The notes beneath the pieces are model-generated. The model searched no databases. It saw only the letters and a program-made list of their open reading frames with translations, and was not told the DNA's origin. The translations under genes were made by a program, and so were the position numbers. DNA of 64,000 nucleotides from Geobacter sp. FeAm09 (GTDB lineage: Bacteria > Desulfobacterota > Desulfuromonadia > Geobacterales > Pseudopelobacteraceae): NCBI RefSeq assembly GCF_008330225.1, contig NZ_CP042466.1:3466001-3530000 (forward strand), in the 5' to 3' direction. Of this stretch, positions 37,682 to 50,350 are shown one piece after another. Every line of letters begins with the position of its first letter. Position 1 is the stretch's first letter.

Positions 37682-37727
37682 AACAAAACAGCGAAGGGCG
37701 GGGTTCTCCCGCCCTTCGCTGTTTGTT
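37682..37727. terminator. Bidirectional terminator between DUF116 and the AhpD-like gene
   Basis: AACAGCGAAGGGCGGG pairs with CCCGCCCTTCGCTGTT across a six-base loop, extended by AACAAA/TTTGTT flanks. It sits between two convergent genes and can serve both. The T tracts are short. Confidence 0.8.
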
Positions 37728-37980
37728 ATTCCTTTTCAATCTCCGCCAGCATATCCAGGGCAAAATTCTTGGCCCTGCCGCCGGGGGCGATGGCGCCGTA
37801 GGCGATCGCCTCACGGAGCTCCGCATCCGTGGCGCCATAGGACTTCGCGGCCGCGAAGTGTTTCTTCAGTCAGGTGGGGCACCCCACGGCGATGGCGCAC
37901 CCCACGCGGATCAATTCGCGCGTGCGGCCGTCCAGCACCTCTTCGTACTCATAGTCAAGGAACTTCTTGCGGATGTTCAT
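37726..37980 (-). CDS. AhpD/carboxymuconolactone-decarboxylase-like selenoprotein (84 aa, UGA = Sec37)
   Basis: Read from the ATG at 37978-37980, the frame gives MNIRKKFLDYEYEEVLDGRT, then IRVGCAIAVGCPT, an in-frame TGA (37870-37872), LKKHFAAAKSYGATDAELRE, AIAYGAIAPGG and a TAA at 37726. The AhpD/CMD family has a redox CxxC followed by a helix with His; here it is Cys34-Pro-Thr-Sec37 and KKH. Ten bases after the UGA comes a perfect palindrome ACTTCGCGGCCGCGAAGT, fitting a bacterial SECIS hairpin. The ribosome site is strong (AAAGGAGGGAG). selB is encoded in this window. It is 18 bp downstream of glnE, so third in an mtnA-glnE operon. The alternative is a pseudogene with a Cys-to-stop change. 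Confidence 0.82.
37842..37869 (-). promoter_or_regulatory. Putative bacterial SECIS element
   Basis: Immediately 3' of the UGA on the minus strand: a 10-nt spacer, then a 7-bp stem ACTTCGC/GCGAAGT with loop GGCC. The loop begins 18 nt after the UGA and its first two bases are G, both within the accepted rules for bSECIS elements recognised by SelB. Confidence 0.7.
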
Positions 37981-37998
37981 GGCTCCCTCCTTTCCCCG

Positions 37999-40900
37999 TC
38001 ACGCCAACTCCCCGAGAATCCGGGCGTAGCAGTCCCGGATTCTGCCGGTGATCTCCTCGTAATCGCTGATCAGCGCCACGCCCGGATGTTTCAGGGCAGG
38101 ATCGTAGCCCAGGCGCCGGGCCAGCTTGTTCAGGTAGTTTTTCGATCCCGCCAGATCATTCACCGAATAGTCGTGGATGATGCGCAGGCGGTTTTCCAGC
38201 TTGCGCAGGAAGGTGAAGCCGGAGAGCAGCACCTCGGCGCCGTTTTCCGGCACAAGACCGAGCCCCCCGATCTCCTTGAGGGCCACGAAGGTGCTGGTGG
38301 TGCGTAGTTCGGGATACCGGCACCCGTACTTGAGCTGCAGATACTGGGTGACGAATTCCACATCCACGATGCCGCCCCGGCCGGTCTTGATATTGTAGCT
38401 GCCGTCCCTCTCCCGCGCCAACTCGTTCTCCATGCGCATCCGCAGCCGGTGGATCTCCCGGCGCCCCTCGTCGTCGATGGAGGTCCCGTAGACCGTATGG
38501 CGGATCACGTCGTGCAACTGGGACCCGAGGTTCTCGTTCCCCAGCACCACCCGCGCCTTGGTGAGCGCCTGGCGCTCCCAGATCTGCGCCTCCTTGCGGT
38601 GATACTCCAGGAACGAGTCCAGGGAGGTGACCAGCGGCCCGGCATTGCCCGACGGCCGCAGGCGGGTGTCGATCTTGTACACGTACCCCTCGCGGGTCTG
38701 CATGCTCAGGATCGAAATGATCTTTTGGGCGAGCTTGGCGAAGTATTCGTGGTTGGAGATCTGTTTCTCGCCGTTGGTGGTACCCTGTCGGTCATAGACG
38801 AAGATGATGTCCAGGTCCGAATGGTAGTTGAGATCGCCCCCCCCCAGCTTGCCCATGGCGACCACCGCCAGGGAGGCCTCGGCATCGTTGTCCTCGAAGC
38901 GGAACATGGGGCGGCCGAAACGTTTCAGGTCCTGCACCGCCAGGCGGTAGGCCGCCGCCAGGCAGGCCTCTCCCAGCAGGGTCAGCTGGGCGGTGGCCTC
39001 TCCCTGACCCAGCTTGCCGTGGATGTCGTTCAGGCCGATGCGCAGGAACTCCTCGTTGCGGTACCGGCGCAGCACGTCCAGTTGTTCCTCGAAATAGTCG
39101 GACCGCTCCAGCAGGCCCACCAGTTCCCGGTCCATCATCTCCCGGGGCTTGAGCGTGGAGGCGTAGCTGCGGGCCACCATGCTGTCCAGGAGTTCCGGGT
39201 GGTTGATCAGGATCTTGGAGAGGAATTCGGACATGCCGAACAGGGACACCAGCAGCTTGAGCGTCTCGCGGTTTTCGGCCAGCAGGGCATAGTAGGAGGA
39301 ACGGGTGCCGATGGCCGCCAGAAAACGCTCCAGGTTGGCCAGGGCCATGTCCGGGTCGGGCGACAGGAAGATCTCCTGCAACAGCGGGGGAGCGATCTTT
39401 TCCAGGGTGCGGCGGCCCCGCTCGGTGAGATTGCCGCTCTCGGGACCGCGCCGCAGCGCCTGGAGGTTCCCGTAGGCGCGCTCCACATCTTCGAAGCGGC
39501 GTTCGGCCAGCATATCCTTGACCAGGTCGGGATCGGCCTTGGCATCGAGGAAGAGGAGCACCTGGGGGTCCACATCCAGCTTGAGCTTCTCGTCGCGGGA
39601 ATGGAACAGGTTGCCGTAGATGGCGGAGACATTGCCGCGATGCCGCTCCAGCACCTCCAGAAAGCGTTCCGGGCCGTCGGGGCGCAGGAAACCGCAGCGC
39701 CGGGCCAGGGCGCACAGCTCCTCCTCCCTGGCGGGGAGGTTGTGGGTCTGACGTTCCTGGACCACCTGGATGCGGTGCTCCACCGTGCGGAGGAAGCGGT
39801 AGGCATCGGAGAGCCTGCGGTGGTCGGCGTCCGTAATCAGCCGCGCCGCCAGCAGGGTATCCAGCGCCCTGAGGGAATTGCGCTCCCGCAGATTGGGGTT
39901 CTTGCCGGCATAGACCAGCTGCAGGGCCTGGATGAAGAATTCCACCTCCCGTATCCCCCCGCGCCCCAGCTTGAGGTTGGCCTCCCCCTCCATGGAACGG
40001 GCCAGGGAGGCATCGATCTTCTGCTTCATGTTCTTCATATCCTCGATCAGGTTGTAATCGAGATATTTGCGGTAGACGAACGGCTGGAGCATCTTCAGCA
40101 ACTGGTTGCCCAGCTCCAGGGAGCCGGCCACCGGCCGCGCCTTGAGCATGGCGGTACGCTCCCACGACTGGCCCCAGGACTCGTAGTAGATCTCGGCCGA
40201 GCGCAGGGAAACCGCCATGTCGCCCGCTTTCCCCTCCGGCCGCAGCCCCACGTCCACCCGGAAGACAAAACCGTCCTCGGTCACCAGGGAGAGCGCCTTG
40301 CTGATCATCTCCCCCAATTTGTTGAAAAAGGTGTGCAGGGAGACGACCCCCTTCCGCCCGCCGGAGCCGTTCTCCAGGCCGCTGGTCTCCCCCCGGTCCG
40401 ATTCGTAGAAGTAGATGATGTCGATGTCCGAGGAGAAGTTCAGTTCATTCCCCCCCAGCTTGCCCATGCCGATCACGGTCATTTCCGCCTCGCGGGGGCC
40501 GTCGTCGCTTTCCATCAGGGGGACGCCGTATTCCCGGATCAGGCAGCGGCGGCAGACCTCGTAGGCTACCTGCAGCGCCGCGGCCGCCAGGCTGGAAAGC
40601 TCGCCGGTCACCTCCTCCAGGGAGGCGAGGCCGTTCAGGTCGCGGGCGGCGATGCGCAGGATCTCGGCCCGCTTGAAGCAGCGCAGCACCCTGAGCAGTT
40701 CCGTGAAATCGGTCCCCTCGTCCACCCGGGAGCGGAGGGCGGCCAGCATCTCCCCGTCCCTGCGGGCACGATCGATGGCATTCTCCAGAAACAGCCAGCG
40801 GAATACGGCGGGGGTCTTGTAGATCAGATTGACCAGGAACGGGGAGGAGCCGCACACCTGGATGAACTGCCCCAGGCGCTTCCTGCGCCGGGCGACCTCG

Positions 40901-41169
40901 GCCAGATCTTCGGGGGCGATGACGCCGGTCAGGCGCTCGAAGGCGTTGAGCGCCATATCGGGCAGGGGGGTGAGGAGCGAGCCGACGATGATGCGGTGCA
41001 GCGAAGCGACGGAGAAGTGCGACCCGGTCAGGATGGCGTTCTGCGCCGAACGCTCGCCGTGGAGATAGCCGTGGGACTCCAGGAAGGCGGCCAGGGCGCG
41101 GGCCCGGTCGCCAGGCTCGGCAAGGCCCATGATACGGCCGAACTCATGGGAGAAGCGTTCCACATGCAT
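37999..41169 (-). CDS. glnE: Bifunctional glutamine synthetase adenylyltransferase/deadenylyltransferase
   Basis: A 1,056-residue enzyme that adds AMP to and removes it from glutamine synthetase under PII control. It has two nucleotidyltransferase domains: LNFSSDIDIIYFYE in the N-terminal half and LNYHSDLDIIFVYD in the C-terminal half, each followed by helical domains (GRGGIREVEFFIQ and GRGGIVDVEFVTQ). The length is about 100 residues over the E. coli form but normal for this group. It is 3 bp downstream of mtnA and 18 bp upstream of the AhpD-like gene. Together with gltBD it covers ammonium assimilation. Confidence 0.96.
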   Translation of the reverse strand: MHVERFSHEFGRIMGLAEPGDRARALAAFLESHGYLHGERSAQNAILTGSHFSVASLHRIIVGSLLTPLPDMALNAFERLTGVIAPEDLAEVARRRKRLGQFIQVCGSSPFLVNLIYKTPAVFRWLFLENAIDRARRDGEMLAALRSRVDEGTDFTELLRVLRCFKRAEILRIAARDLNGLASLEEVTGELSSLAAAALQVAYEVCRRCLIREYGVPLMESDDGPREAEMTVIGMGKLGGNELNFSSDIDIIYFYESDRGETSGLENGSGGRKGVVSLHTFFNKLGEMISKALSLVTEDGFVFRVDVGLRPEGKAGDMAVSLRSAEIYYESWGQSWERTAMLKARPVAGSLELGNQLLKMLQPFVYRKYLDYNLIEDMKNMKQKIDASLARSMEGEANLKLGRGGIREVEFFIQALQLVYAGKNPNLRERNSLRALDTLLAARLITDADHRRLSDAYRFLRTVEHRIQVVQERQTHNLPAREEELCALARRCGFLRPDGPERFLEVLERHRGNVSAIYGNLFHSRDEKLKLDVDPQVLLFLDAKADPDLVKDMLAERRFEDVERAYGNLQALRRGPESGNLTERGRRTLEKIAPPLLQEIFLSPDPDMALANLERFLAAIGTRSSYYALLAENRETLKLLVSLFGMSEFLSKILINHPELLDSMVARSYASTLKPREMMDRELVGLLERSDYFEEQLDVLRRYRNEEFLRIGLNDIHGKLGQGEATAQLTLLGEACLAAAYRLAVQDLKRFGRPMFRFEDNDAEASLAVVAMGKLGGGDLNYHSDLDIIFVYDRQGTTNGEKQISNHEYFAKLAQKIISILSMQTREGYVYKIDTRLRPSGNAGPLVTSLDSFLEYHRKEAQIWERQALTKARVVLGNENLGSQLHDVIRHTVYGTSIDDEGRREIHRLRMRMENELARERDGSYNIKTGRGGIVDVEFVTQYLQLKYGCRYPELRTTSTFVALKEIGGLGLVPENGAEVLLSGFTFLRKLENRLRIIHDYSVNDLAGSKNYLNKLARRLGYDPALKHPGVALISDYEEITGRIRDCYARILGELA

Positions 41170-41172
41170 GGG

Positions 41173-42213
41173 TCAGATACCCGCGATCTTTCTGAGGCCG
41201 AAGAGGTAATCGCCGCTGACGATCCCCTTTTCGGTGATGATGGCGGTAATGTAGCGGGCCGGCGTCACGTCGAAGGCCGGGTTGCGCACGCCGACGCCGG
41301 CAGGCGCGATGGCGACGCCCTTGATATGGGTGACCTCGTCCCGGTGGCGTTCCTCGATGGGGATCTGGCTGCCGTCGCTCAGGGAGAGGTCCAGGGTCGA
41401 GAGCGGCGCGGCCACGTAGAACGGGATATTGTTCTCCTTGGCCAGCACCGCCACCGAATAGGTGCCGATCTTGTTGGCCGTGTCGCCGTTGGCGGCGATC
41501 CGGTCGGCCCCCACCACGCAGCAGGTGATCTCCCCGCGGTTCATGAAAAATCCGGCCATGTTGTCGGAGATCAGGGTGGCGGGAATCCCCTCCTTGACCA
41601 GCTCCCAGGCGGTCAGGCGCGCCCCCTGCAGCCAGGGGCGGGTCTCGTCGGCAAAGACCTTGACCGCCTTGCCCGCCTCGTGGGCGGCCCGGATCACCCC
41701 CAGGGCGGTGCCGTAGCCGGCGGTCGCCAGGCCTCCGGCGTTGCAGTGGGTCAGGATCGTGGCCTCCTGGGGGATCAGGGTGGCGCCCCATTTGCCGATG
41801 TTGCGGCAGATGGTCAGGTCTTCCTCCTCGATGCGGATGGCCTCCTTCTTGAGCGCCTCGCGGATCTGGTCCAGGCTCTTGCCGCGATGGGCCTCGGCCA
41901 CCCGCTTCATGCGCTCGATGCCCCAGAACAGGTTGACCGCCGTGGGACGGGTCCGGGCCATGATCTCGCAGACGTTCTCCAACTGGCGGAAAAACGACTC
42001 GTGGGTATCGGCGATGATCTCCCGCGCCCCCAGGGCGATCCCCATGGCCGCCGCAACGCCGATGGCCGGGGCCCCCCGGATGATCATCCCCCTGATGGCC
42101 TCGGCCACGGACTTGAAATCCTCGTAGGTATTGTAGACCTCTTCCCCCGGCAGGCGGGTCTGGTCGATCATGACCACGGCGTTGTCACGCCACTCGATGG
42201 TGCGGAAGGACAT
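41173..42213 (-). CDS. mtnA: S-methyl-5-thioribose-1-phosphate isomerase
   Basis: A 346-residue aldose-ketose isomerase of the methionine salvage pathway. The motifs [16 protein letters not shown], the catalytic Cys in [18 protein letters not shown] and the catalytic Asp in [20 protein letters not shown] are present. The latter string also separates MtnA from eIF2B-like relatives. The ATG at 42211-42213 follows GAGGAG at 7 nt. It heads an operon with glnE and is divergent from the helicase gene. No other methionine-salvage gene is in the window. Confidence 0.96.
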
Positions 42214-42406
42214 GCGCGGCTCCTCGGAAAGTGTTATTGCAACACGTGGATGAATGTATCACGGAGGCCCGGACGCAGGCAATCATTTCGACCGCGCCGG
42301 CGTCCCCTTTTTCCTTGCCGCTCCCCCGCGGCGCTGCTAAACTCTCAAGAGGGTTTGCGGCATCCCTCCGGCATACCGATCAGCACGAAAGAAGCACATA
42401 CAGCCA

Positions 42407-44923
42407 ATGCACAACTATTTCAGCGACGACGCGCTGCTGCTCATGCGCCACGAGATCGAGGCCGCCGCCGGCAACGAGGTTTTCTTCATCGGCCGGGCAA
42501 ATATCGAAGGCATCGTTTTCGAGGTGGAGGCCATCGCCCGCGGCAGCAAGCAGGCCGTACCGGCCATCCTCACCCGTGCGGCCTGCGGCGACGTGGTCAT
42601 CCACAACCACCCCTCCGGCGACCTGACCCCGTCCGGGGCCGACATGGACATCGCCTCGGTGGCCGGCAACCAGGGGATCGGCTTCGCGATCATCGACAAC
42701 GGCTGCACCCGCTGCTACCAGGTGGTATCCCCCTTCACCGAGAAAAAGGGGGAATTGCTCTCCCTGGACGAGATCGCCCGGGTCTTTGCCCCGGACGGGA
42801 TGATGGCCCGCCTCAAGGGGTACGAGCAGCGGGACGAACAGGTGCGCATGGCCTTCGCCGTGGCCGAGGCGTTCAACCGCGACCGGGTGGTCCTGGTGGA
42901 GGCGGGCACCGGCACCGGCAAATCCCTGGCCTACCTGGTGCCGGCCATCCTCTGGGCGGTGCGCAACAACCAGCGGGTGGTGGTTTCCACCAACACCATC
43001 AACCTCCAGGAGCAGTTGATCCGCAAGGACCTGCCGTTCCTGGCGCGCAACTCCTCCCTGGAATTCAAGGCGGTGCTGGTCAAGGGGCGCGGCAACTACG
43101 CCTGCCTGCGCAAGCTGGAAAACGCCGAGGCCGAACCATCCCTGTTCCCGGACGAATCGGCGGCGGAGCTGACCGCCATCATCGAGTGGAGCAAAAGCTG
43201 CCAGGACGGCTGCCGCAGCGACCTGGCCTTCACCCCGCGGGCAGGCACCTGGGAGGAGGTCTGCTGCGAGGCGGACCAGTGCAGCCGCTCCCGCTGCAAG
43301 CATTTCAACCGCTGCTTCTTCTACCGGGCCCGGCGCGACGCCTCGGCCGCCAGGGTGCTGGTGGTCAACCATGCCCTGCTCCTGTCGGACATCGTGCTGC
43401 GCAAGGAGACCGGCTACGACGCCACCGCCATCCTCCCCCCCTTCACCCGCCTGATCTTCGACGAAGGGCACCACCTGGAGGATGTGGCCACCAACCACCT
43501 CTCCCTGACCATCTCCCGCGGCGGCATCCTGCGCCAGCTGCAGCGGCTGGTCCCCCCGAAGGCCAACCGCAGCGGCCTGTTGACCATCATCTCGGCCCGC
43601 CTGGCCCGGGATCTGCCGGACACCATGGAGGCGCTCTACACCGAGCTGTCGGCCCTGCTGGAAAGCCACCTGCTTCCCAAGGCCCACGACCTGGCCGGGC
43701 TGACCGAACAGAGCATGGACTGGCTGGCCCTGGCCGTGGAGCGGGAAACCGGGGGCGAAGGGGGACGGGAGCGCAAGCTGCGGGTCACGCCGGCCCTGGA
43801 GCAGGGGGCCTTCTGGCGGGAGTGCAGCCAGCGGGCCCGGACCATGGCCGATGCGCTGAACGACTATACCTCGGCCCTGCGCAGTCTCCTACGCCGGTGC
43901 GAGGACCTGCCGGACCGCCTGCGGGAGAAGATGGCCGATCAGCTGCTGGATGCCGGCGGCATCGAGGGACGCCTCCAGACCATGGCCGACGGCCTTTTGT
44001 TCTTCATCTCCGATGCCGAAGGCTATTGCCGCTGGATCGAGGCCCGCTCCGGCCACCGGGGCGTGCAGGCCCGGCTCTGCGCCGCGCCGCTGGACATCGC
44101 GGGCCAGGTGAAGGAAACCATCCTGGACCGGCTCAAGACCATCATCGTCACCTCGGCCACCCTGACCGTGGGGGGCGATTTCGGCTACCTGAAGAAACGC
44201 ACCGGCTTCGCCCTTCTGGCCCCGGAGCGCCTGGAAGAACTCCGCCTGGCCTCCCCCTTCGACTACGCCTCCCAGGTCTTCGCCGGCATCCCGGAGGACA
44301 TGCCCGAGCCGACCGCGCCCGGGTTCCGCCAGGCGCTGGAGGAGCGCATCCTGCGGGCCGTGACCATCTCGAGGGGAGGGGCCTTTATCCTGTTCACCTC
44401 CTACGACCTGCTCAACCGCGTCCACGGCGCCCTGGCCCCGGAACTGGCCAGGCTGGGGCTTGTGGCCCTCAAACAGGGCGAAACCGGCCGCCATGCCCTG
44501 CTCTCCCGCTTTCGCACGGAGCACAACGCCGTGCTGTTCGGCACCGATTCGTTCTGGGAAGGAGTGGATGTCAAGGGGGAGGCGCTCCGGCTGGTGATCA
44601 TCGCCCGGCTCCCCTTCCAGGTGCCGACCGAGCCGGTGCAGCAGGCCCGCACCGAGCAGATCCAGGCGGCCGGAGGCGATCCGTTCCGCGAGTTTTCCGT
44701 GCCCCAGGCGGTCATCAAATTCCGCCAGGGGTTCGGCCGCCTGATCCGCAGCCGGGATGACCGCGGCGCGGTGCTGATCCTGGACCGGCGGGTGACCACC
44801 AAGAACTACGGCAGGATCTTTCTGCGCTCCCTGCCCGAGACGGCGCTGGTGAAAGGGGATTCGGAGGAGGTCTTTACGAGGATGGAAGCGTTTTTTAACG
44901 GACTTCCTTTTGTAAGGCCTTAG
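42407..44923 (+). CDS. DinG-family helicase fused to an N-terminal JAMM/RadC-like domain
   Basis: An 838-residue protein. Residues 1-110 form a JAB/JAMM metalloprotease-like domain with a complete motif: Glu24, then His66-x-His68-x7-Ser76-x2-Asp79 (IHNHPSGDLTPSGADMD). The rest is an XPD/DinG-type superfamily-2 helicase: Walker A EAGTGTGKS, the four-cysteine iron-sulfur region (NYACLRK; CCEADQCSRSRCKHFNRC), DEGH box LIFDEGHHLED, and the C-terminal GTDSFWEGVDVKGE motif. DinG unwinds R-loops and forked DNA. The fusion suggests a function joining DNA repair to a metal-dependent hydrolase. The gene stands alone and a weak ribosome site precedes the ATG. Confidence 0.9.
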   Translation: MHNYFSDDALLLMRHEIEAAAGNEVFFIGRANIEGIVFEVEAIARGSKQAVPAILTRAACGDVVIHNHPSGDLTPSGADMDIASVAGNQGIGFAIIDNGCTRCYQVVSPFTEKKGELLSLDEIARVFAPDGMMARLKGYEQRDEQVRMAFAVAEAFNRDRVVLVEAGTGTGKSLAYLVPAILWAVRNNQRVVVSTNTINLQEQLIRKDLPFLARNSSLEFKAVLVKGRGNYACLRKLENAEAEPSLFPDESAAELTAIIEWSKSCQDGCRSDLAFTPRAGTWEEVCCEADQCSRSRCKHFNRCFFYRARRDASAARVLVVNHALLLSDIVLRKETGYDATAILPPFTRLIFDEGHHLEDVATNHLSLTISRGGILRQLQRLVPPKANRSGLLTIISARLARDLPDTMEALYTELSALLESHLLPKAHDLAGLTEQSMDWLALAVERETGGEGGRERKLRVTPALEQGAFWRECSQRARTMADALNDYTSALRSLLRRCEDLPDRLREKMADQLLDAGGIEGRLQTMADGLLFFISDAEGYCRWIEARSGHRGVQARLCAAPLDIAGQVKETILDRLKTIIVTSATLTVGGDFGYLKKRTGFALLAPERLEELRLASPFDYASQVFAGIPEDMPEPTAPGFRQALEERILRAVTISRGGAFILFTSYDLLNRVHGALAPELARLGLVALKQGETGRHALLSRFRTEHNAVLFGTDSFWEGVDVKGEALRLVIIARLPFQVPTEPVQQARTEQIQAAGGDPFREFSVPQAVIKFRQGFGRLIRSRDDRGAVLILDRRVTTKNYGRIFLRSLPETALVKGDSEEVFTRMEAFFNGLPFVRP

Positions 44924-48439: not shown

Positions 48440-50350
48440 ATGAAACACCTCATTCTCGGCACCGCCGGGCACATCGATCACGGCAAGACGTCCCTGGTCA
48501 GGGCCCTAACCGGCATCGACACCGACCGCCTCAAGGAGGAGAAGGCCCGCGGCATCACCATCGAGCTGGGGTTCGCCCACCTGGAACTGCCGGGCGGCAT
48601 CCGTTTCGGCATCGTGGACGTGCCGGGCCACGAGCGCTTCGTGCGCACCATGGTGGCCGGCGTGGGGGGCATGGACCTGGTCATGCTGGTGATCGCCGCC
48701 GACGAGGGGATCATGCCCCAGACCCGGGAACACCTGGACATCCTGCGGCTTCTGGGGGTGAAGAACGGACTGGTCGCCCTGACCAAGCGGGACATGGTGG
48801 AGCCGGAGTGGCTGGCCCTGGTGACCGAGGAGGTGCGGGAGTTCACGGCCGGCAGCTTTCTGGAAAATGCGCCGATCATCCCGGTGTCCGCGCGCAGCGG
48901 CGAGGGGCTGGATACGTTGAAAGCCGAGCTGGCCAGACTGGCGGAACAGAGCGCGGAAAAACGGCGGGAAGGGCACTTCCGCCTGCCGGTGGACCGGGTC
49001 TTCACCATGGCCGGCTTCGGCACGGTGGTGACCGGCACGCTCCTTTCGGGCGAGATCAGGGTGGGGGACGAACTGGAACTGCTCCCCTCGGGCCGGGAAG
49101 GGCGGGTACGCGGCATCCAGGCCCACGGCAGCAAGGTGGATACCGGTATGGCCGGGCAGCGCCTGGCGGTGAACGTGCAGGGGGTGGACCTGGACCAGGT
49201 GCACCGGGGCAACGTGCTCGTGCCGCGGGGGGTCTTCCGGGCCACCCGGACCGTGGATGCGCGCCTGGACCTTCTGGCCTCGGCCCCGCGGGAGTTGAAA
49301 CACCGCGCCACCCTGCGGCTCCATTCCGCCACCTACGAGGTGCCGGCCCAGGTCATTCTCCTGGACCGCGACACGCTGTCGCCGGGAGAGAGCGCTTTCG
49401 TGCAGCTGCGCCTCAAGGAGCCGGCCCTGCTCCTGCCGGGGGACAGCTACATCCTGCGGGTCGCCTCCCCCGCCACCACGGTGGGGGGCGGCGTGGTGCT
49501 GGACCCCTTCCCGCCCCGCCGGCGCCGGCGCAGCGGCGAGGCGCTCCAGTTGCTGGAGGTGCTGGGTAGCGAGGAGCACCAGCGCATCTGCGCCCTGCTC
49601 GTCAGCCAGAGCCTGCTCTCCGGGGTCGCCTTCGAGGAGATCCTGCTCCGCTCCGGCATCCCGCGCAAGGCGGCCGAGGCCGCCCTGGCCGGGCTCCTCT
49701 CCTCCGGGGAGGTCATTCAGGTGATCCGGGAGCCCCGCACCTTCCTCGCCCGCGAGGCGTTCGCCACGCTGAAGAGCGGCCTTGTGGGGGAGGTCACCGC
49801 CTTTCTGGCCGCCAATCCGCTCAAGGAGGGGATGGGCAAGGAGGAACTGAAAACGCGCCTGCCCAAGCGGAGCGACCAGCGCTTCTTCACCCCGGTGCTG
49901 TCGGCCATGGAGCGGGACGGCACCCTGTCCCTGGAACGGGATATCGTCAAACCGGTCGGGCGGGTGGTGCAGAGCACCGCCGCCGGCGACGGCCTGGCCG
50001 GGAAGATCGCCGCGTTCCTGGGAGAGAAGGGGAGCGAGCCGCCGACCATCAAGGAGATCATGGAGCGGTTCCGCTGCGACGAAAAGGGGGTGCGCGACAA
50101 CCTGGCGCTTTTGGTCAGGAAAGGGGAGGCGGTGCGCATCTCCAGCGATCTGTTCTACGCCGCCCCGGCCCTGGACGAGCTGCGGGAGAAGCTGGTGGCG
50201 CTGCTTATGGCCAAGGGGGAGATCACCCCGCCCGAATACCGGGAACAGACCGGCCTGTCGCGCAAGTACCTCATCCCGCTCCTGGAACACTTCGACAGCG
50301 AGAAGCTCACCATCCGGGTGGGGGACAAGCGGGTGCTGCGGAAGAGGTGA
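48440..50350 (+). CDS. selB: Selenocysteine-specific translation elongation factor
   Basis: A 636-residue GTPase that brings Sec-tRNA(Sec) to UGA codons next to a SECIS hairpin. The G1 motif [20 protein letters not shown], the switch region [17 protein letters not shown] and G3 [13 protein letters not shown] are typical of SelB and differ from EF-Tu. Domains 2-3 follow to about 340, and the C-terminal winged helices (about 360-636, SECIS-binding) have the LPKRSDQRF and [17 protein letters not shown] strings. The start ATG at 48440 follows AGGAAGGA. selA, selC and selD were not seen here. Its presence supports reading UGA as Sec in this genome. Confidence 0.95.

Follow-up and report, generated by a model that had tools for sequence, protein, structure and literature searches.

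The window analysed here, a stretch of 64,000 nucleotides from Geobacter sp. FeAm09 (NZ_CP042466.1, positions 3,466,001 to 3,530,000), almost certainly carries a functional gene for a selenoprotein of the GSU3128 family, in which a SelB-recruiting hairpin allows an in-frame UGA to be read as selenocysteine (Sec), giving a full protein of 84 residues. We favour this reading because each of the 115 distinct family genes compared has the TGA and the hairpin is conserved. The conservation of the UGA, the hairpin and the frame and the presence of the machinery emerge from comparison of sequences, and from these we infer the insertion of Sec itself. The observation on which the original prediction was built is confirmed and its interpretation as a selenoprotein is supported.

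Insertion of Sec in bacteria by SelB and a SECIS hairpin is an established process. In the present case SelB, carrying Sec-tRNA-Sec, would be recruited during translation by the hairpin just past the UGA; the UGA would then be read as Sec and the complete 84-residue protein would be made.

The gene, its neighbours and its family

The gene runs from 37980 to 37726 on the minus strand, and its product reads MNIRKKFLDYEYEEVLDGRTRELIRVGCAIAVGCPT-U-LKKHFAAAKSYGATDAELREAIAYGAIAPGGRAKNFALDMLAEIEKE*. The frame comprises 36 sense codons, counting the ATG at 37980, then the UGA, 47 further sense codons and the TAA at 37728-37726; a Shine-Dalgarno-like AGGAGGG (37985..37991, minus) precedes the ATG. The UGA (37870..37872, minus), which is codon 37, occupies the second position of a CxxC motif, here Cys-Pro-Thr-Sec, with the codon of Cys34, the presumed resolving partner of Sec37, at 37879..37881 (minus). 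The codons of Glu22 (37915..37917, minus) and His41 (37858..37860, minus) would specify proton relays, by analogy with AhpD. The palindrome ACTTCGC-GGCC-GCGAAGT (37859 to 37842) starts 10 nt past the UGA and corresponds to a bSECIS-type hairpin, ACUUCGC-GGCC-GCGAAGU (37842..37859, minus), with 7 bp in the window and a loop that runs from the 18th nt and opens with GG; the last base of the His41 codon is the first C of the conserved 6-bp stem. The original prediction had described the 84-codon frame at 37726-37980 with its proper stop, the ribosome site, the single in-frame TGA in the redox motif and the palindrome with this spacing, and each of these is found in the sequence. It had left the strand unstated; the plus strand, read in the same place, gives no such protein and the gene belongs to the minus strand.

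Directly upstream, across a gap of 18 nt, lies glnE (37999..41169, minus; 812 bits against an equivalog cut-off of 487), itself preceded by mtnA (41173..42213, minus; TIGR00512, 458.2 bits against a cut-off of 279), and the selenoprotein gene is probably the last gene of a glnE transcript. A terminator-like stem of 17-18 bp (37686..37724, assigned to no strand), which is a consensus match only and has a T-rich tail on both strands, sits between the selenoprotein gene and a convergent DUF116 gene. The gene for SelB, the Sec-specific elongation factor (636 aa), is found at 48440..50350 on the plus strand, its start at the distance of about 10.5 kb that had been claimed. A search of the window against Rfam at gathering thresholds returned three tRNAs and nothing else. 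Very long open reading frames run antisense to glnE and its neighbours, for example that at 38449-44760 on the plus strand (2103 aa), and are probably an effect of GC-rich composition.

The mtnA-glnE operon that had been predicted holds as regards the identity of both upstream genes, whereas the linkage to glnE is local. Across the 115 distinct loci, glnE directly precedes the selenoprotein gene in 24 and an amine-oxidase-family gene does so in seven, and in 37 the upstream neighbour falls in no shared cluster; the next gene downstream belongs to a MatE transporter family in 30 loci, to the DUF116-containing family in 16 loci and to GreA/B in four. These neighbour families are named from one representative each and some loci are short, such that a missing neighbour is not always informative. 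We have rejected the neighbourhood as a guide to function, since neighbours so varied form no conserved operon and the context gives no firm functional hint.

For the family searches the UGA was translated as Cys. With C in place of U, the protein scores 143.1 bits (136.3 bits in a profile search of the genome) against the curated cut-off of 110 for NF041047, the equivalog 'GSU3128 family (seleno)protein', and matches Pfam CMD at 7.4e-15 (55.2 bits against a cut-off of 23), which bears out the AhpD/CMD identity originally proposed. It is like the members of NF041047 in its score over cut-off, in the one Sec, encoded by a single in-frame UGA, within CxxU, in its length of 84 positions and in its occurrence in Geobacter; there is no family-defining difference, and the loop GGCC, found in 10 of the 115 genes, stands in place of the commonest, GGUC. 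The nearest named relative among the matches listed is from Oryzomonas japonica, at 98% identity.

The window gene is thus an orthologue of a known selenoprotein, of a family known since the mid-2000s. Chaudhuri and Yeates (2005, PMC1242214) give a prediction in G. sulfurreducens that is similar to 4-carboxymuconolactone decarboxylase and is presumably the orthologue of the window gene, and Zhang et al. (2006, PMC1794560) list a 'distant AhpD homolog' in G. sulfurreducens and 'G. uraniumreducens', with two selenoproteins and one Cys-to-Sec event. The same name, with CxxU and AAR36519.2, is used in a review (PMC9312934), and a further review (PMC13188914) has a CxxU entry under NF041047 / WP_255296099.1. 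A literature search pairing 'selenoprotein' with 'GSU3128' returned no paper, the family being printed under other names. The original prediction took only the class to be known, when in fact the exact family is both curated and published. It also expected the gene to be split or missed by a standard caller: a caller that treats UGA as a stop does end the gene after 36 codons, but annotation based on models could catch it, since the family is curated and published.

The hairpin and the selenocysteine machinery

Folded as a single sequence, the hairpin region is no more stable than its shuffles (z of -0.31, +0.94 and -0.46 at three lengths), and the RNA fold that had been proposed as a check is accordingly unremarkable. 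It is the comparison across relatives that is decisive, and on this comparative evidence the hairpin is real. We pooled the loci found in the order, those from a sample of the phylum and the best 80 of 121 relatives' contigs, for a total of 190 loci that represent 115 distinct genes. Of these 115, 111 have the stem of six pairs unbroken; when synonymous codons were redrawn 400 times, the number of such genes averaged 25.6 and never exceeded 39. Among 85 distinct sequences, the pair 14-29 is CG in 80, TA in three and TG in two, and the pair 20-23 is GC in 72, CG in nine, AT in three and TG in one, with changes on both sides in each case; the doubt originally attached to the conservation of the hairpin is dispelled by these compensatory changes. 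Furthermore, the ratio of observed to expected synonymous entropy has a mean of 0.20 in the hairpin codons, +5 to +9, against 0.86 in the other codon columns, and these five codons rank 1, 7, 2, 3 and 4 among 55 for low synonymous entropy; column +4 (His41), where the background consists of only three His codons, was excluded.

In the remaining four genes (L190, L194, L199 and L115) the standard stem is disrupted, and 3 nt downstream, at +17 to +32 counted from the first base of the UGA, there is a stem of 6-8 bp with the loop GGCA. Judged from these sequences, a GG-opening hairpin is rebuilt one codon downstream. The bSECIS rule calls for a set spacing from the UGA and for a G in the first two bases of the loop, and such a G, present in the conserved hairpin just 3' of the UGA in the window, is found in 104 of the 115 genes. 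The 11 genes that lack it in the standard register all belong to a Trichlorobacter-like genus (11 over-cut-off genomes): four regain GG by the shift of register, and seven, with CCUG, CUUG or UCUG loops in the standard register and competing folds, are without a clear bSECIS-conforming fold. These seven may be intermediates of the register shift. Five distant genes scoring below the cut-off have the same type of hairpin.

The genome encodes selA (612.5 bits), selD (359.7 bits, with an in-frame TGA of its own) and two genes for tRNA-Sec(UCA), with the anticodon TCA, in addition to selB, such that the selA, selC and selD named in the original prediction are all accounted for. Within the taxonomic family (76 genomes), 63 have a Sec marker, defined as an over-cut-off tRNA-Sec or selA, and the gene occurs in 45 of these, versus three of the 13 without one (Fisher p = 0.003, kinship ignored); a genome with a match to residues 1-32 only (G133) was entered in this table as lacking the gene. 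Eighteen genomes have the marker and lack the gene. Matches to tRNA-Sec were accepted at E <= 1e-9 under stricter filters, and a second search of the 17 genomes without a match gave matches in eight, none of them over the family cut-off.

Three genomes carry the gene without the marker. One, G073, is 66% complete and has selB. The other two, G082 (L086, 96% complete) and G092 (L080, 99%), are drafts in which the UGA gene and its hairpin are intact and in which we found no over-cut-off tRNA-Sec or selB and no selA; they represent two of the 48 gene-bearing genomes of the taxonomic family, and may be put down alternatively to assembly gaps, to mis-binning or to a recent loss of the machinery. 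The two would also suit a UGA that is read as an amino acid other than Sec (Trp or Cys, for example, by a suppressor tRNA), or a hairpin that serves ordinary regulated read-through. Set against such a reading are the association of the gene with the Sec marker, the bSECIS-like spacing and the loop G, the position of the UGA at the second Cys of the CxxC motif and the full machinery in the gene's own genome, and we consider it very improbable.

The genome also holds a second selB (G000:C1:3339800-3341893; L129, L136), near the second tRNA-Sec gene, which is 75% identical to that of the window over 601 aa; the C-terminus of this copy, within the presumed SECIS-binding domain, lies out of frame. 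In G115 (L245) and G117 (L246) a second copy can be aligned without a break over residues 3-638. Two selB genes are present in three of the six genomes of the genus and two or three tRNA-Sec genes in four of the six, a duplication of selB/selC among Oryzomonas relatives. At L248 1784-1921, in G115, a tRNA-Sec gene is followed by a fragment that matches no more of SelB than its last 46 residues and is perhaps the remnant of a selC-selB unit. Multiple tRNA-Sec genes are reported elsewhere (PMC5330540).

The UGA as a sense codon in relatives

A search of 141 genomes of the order, our own included, gave matches at E <= 0.001 in 119 and scores over the NF041047 cut-off in 91. All 91 over-cut-off genes have exactly one in-frame TGA, at the same position of the motif, following CP[T/D/V/A/S] or C[Q/R]T. 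The phylum sample (395 genomes) gave 16 genes over the cut-off, nine of which belong also to the order set, and the TGA is present in 16/16; each of five weaker matches, at 1e-17 to 1e-19, also has one TGA. Over the pooled set the TGA is found in 115 of 115 distinct genes, that of the window among them. Further AhpD-like matches below the cut-off have one in-frame TGA (G125:C1:1234191, G010:C101:16055, G009:C1:1115947, G056:C1:38503 and others) and perhaps represent other AhpD-type selenoprotein families.

The frame downstream of the UGA evolves as coding DNA, as seen from the differences per site at codon positions 1, 2 and 3: 0.188/0.156/0.555 past the UGA, about the same profile as the 0.155/0.158/0.506 ahead of it. 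The pN/pS past the UGA is 0.31; this value is only indicative, since the proportions are uncorrected and the mean pS, 0.63, is close to saturation. In an alignment of 40 of the 91 proteins, Glu22, Cys34, His41 and residue 37 never vary, and the same holds for C28 and others. Release factor 2 competes with Sec insertion in bacteria, and one may therefore ask whether the UGA mostly terminates, with a peptide of 36 residues as the main product and Sec read-through as a minor, regulatory outcome; the likeness of the codon-position profiles on the two sides of the UGA and the location of the invariant His41 past it speak against this, and we regard it as a most unlikely account. A pseudogene or a sequencing error, in which a stop would have replaced a Cys codon of an AhpD-like gene and there would be no functional read-through, would take a single-base change from TGC or TGT to TGA and could appeal to the Cys-containing CMD proteins among the relatives of solved structure, but the comparison of relatives, which was to reveal Cys throughout if this were so and shows UGA in every distinct gene, together with continued selection on the downstream frame and a conserved hairpin (111/115), refutes it and leaves it practically no likelihood.

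Protein fold, putative chemistry and selenium dependence

Returning to the selenoprotein that we take the gene to encode, an AlphaFold model with Cys for Sec is mainly helical (pLDDT 88.8, pTM 0.74), and its best Foldseek matches are structures of the CMD/AhpD family, with probabilities of up to 1.00 and a best E of 5.8e-3, no match reaching E 0.001. By sequence, the best matches among solved structures are 7y4r (RclX) and 3bey (O27018), at 8.7e-10 and 1e-9; both have Cys where the window protein has Sec, and 3bey resembles it further in a Cys aligned with Cys28. The Pfam CMD match, the helical model and the invariant E22, C34, U37 and H41 agree in placing the protein in the CMD/AhpD fold. AhpD of the Mycobacterium tuberculosis type (1knc, 1gu9, 1me5; Foldseek probability 0.90-0.96, E about 1) has a helical CMD fold around CxxC and shares the E-C-xx-U-H spacing, whereas the window protein is half as long (84 aa versus chains of 168-174 residues), has Sec for the second Cys and has glnE as its gene neighbour. 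The AhpD-like core is shared also with NF041537 (ArsM_AhpD_UU), NF045649 (MduS) and TIGR04169, but the window protein is far under their cut-offs, with 36 of 510, 31 of 380 and 29 of 120 bits, respectively; NF041537 and MduS are given as CxxU in a review (PMC13188914).

The product would fold in the all-helical manner of CMD/AhpD; Cys34 and Sec37 would make up its CxxU redox pair, and Glu22 and His41 would serve as a proton relay, a role that we presume from AhpD enzymology. The selenolate of Sec37 would attack a peroxide or a disulfide, Cys34 would resolve the intermediate as a selenenylsulfide and a cellular dithiol would then reduce it. By analogy, we think such redox chemistry of Sec37 and Cys34 more probable than not.

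More tentatively, and at somewhat less than even odds, the GSU3128 family may be Sec-obligate, with a SECIS able to move one codon along relative to a fixed UGA, which would point to a reaction that requires selenium. No Cys form of the family was met among the 115 distinct genes examined, and in 10 of the 13 marker-less genomes of the taxonomic family the gene is absent rather than converted to Cys, there being no over-cut-off match in these ten and so no Cys replacement at that level. This result covers the order (141 genomes), the 395-genome sample of the phylum and 80 of the 121 relatives' contigs; the search patterns for relatives came from an alignment of Sec members (the Sec codon excluded) and NF041047 may itself derive from Sec forms, such that a divergent Cys form could be missed.

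With the present work a known selenoprotein family gains one well-supported, Oryzomonas-like member, and the comparison shows that the recoding signal and the protein are both under selection. The distribution of the family, so far restricted to Sec forms, offers a clean system in which to ask what selenium buys an AhpD-type enzyme.
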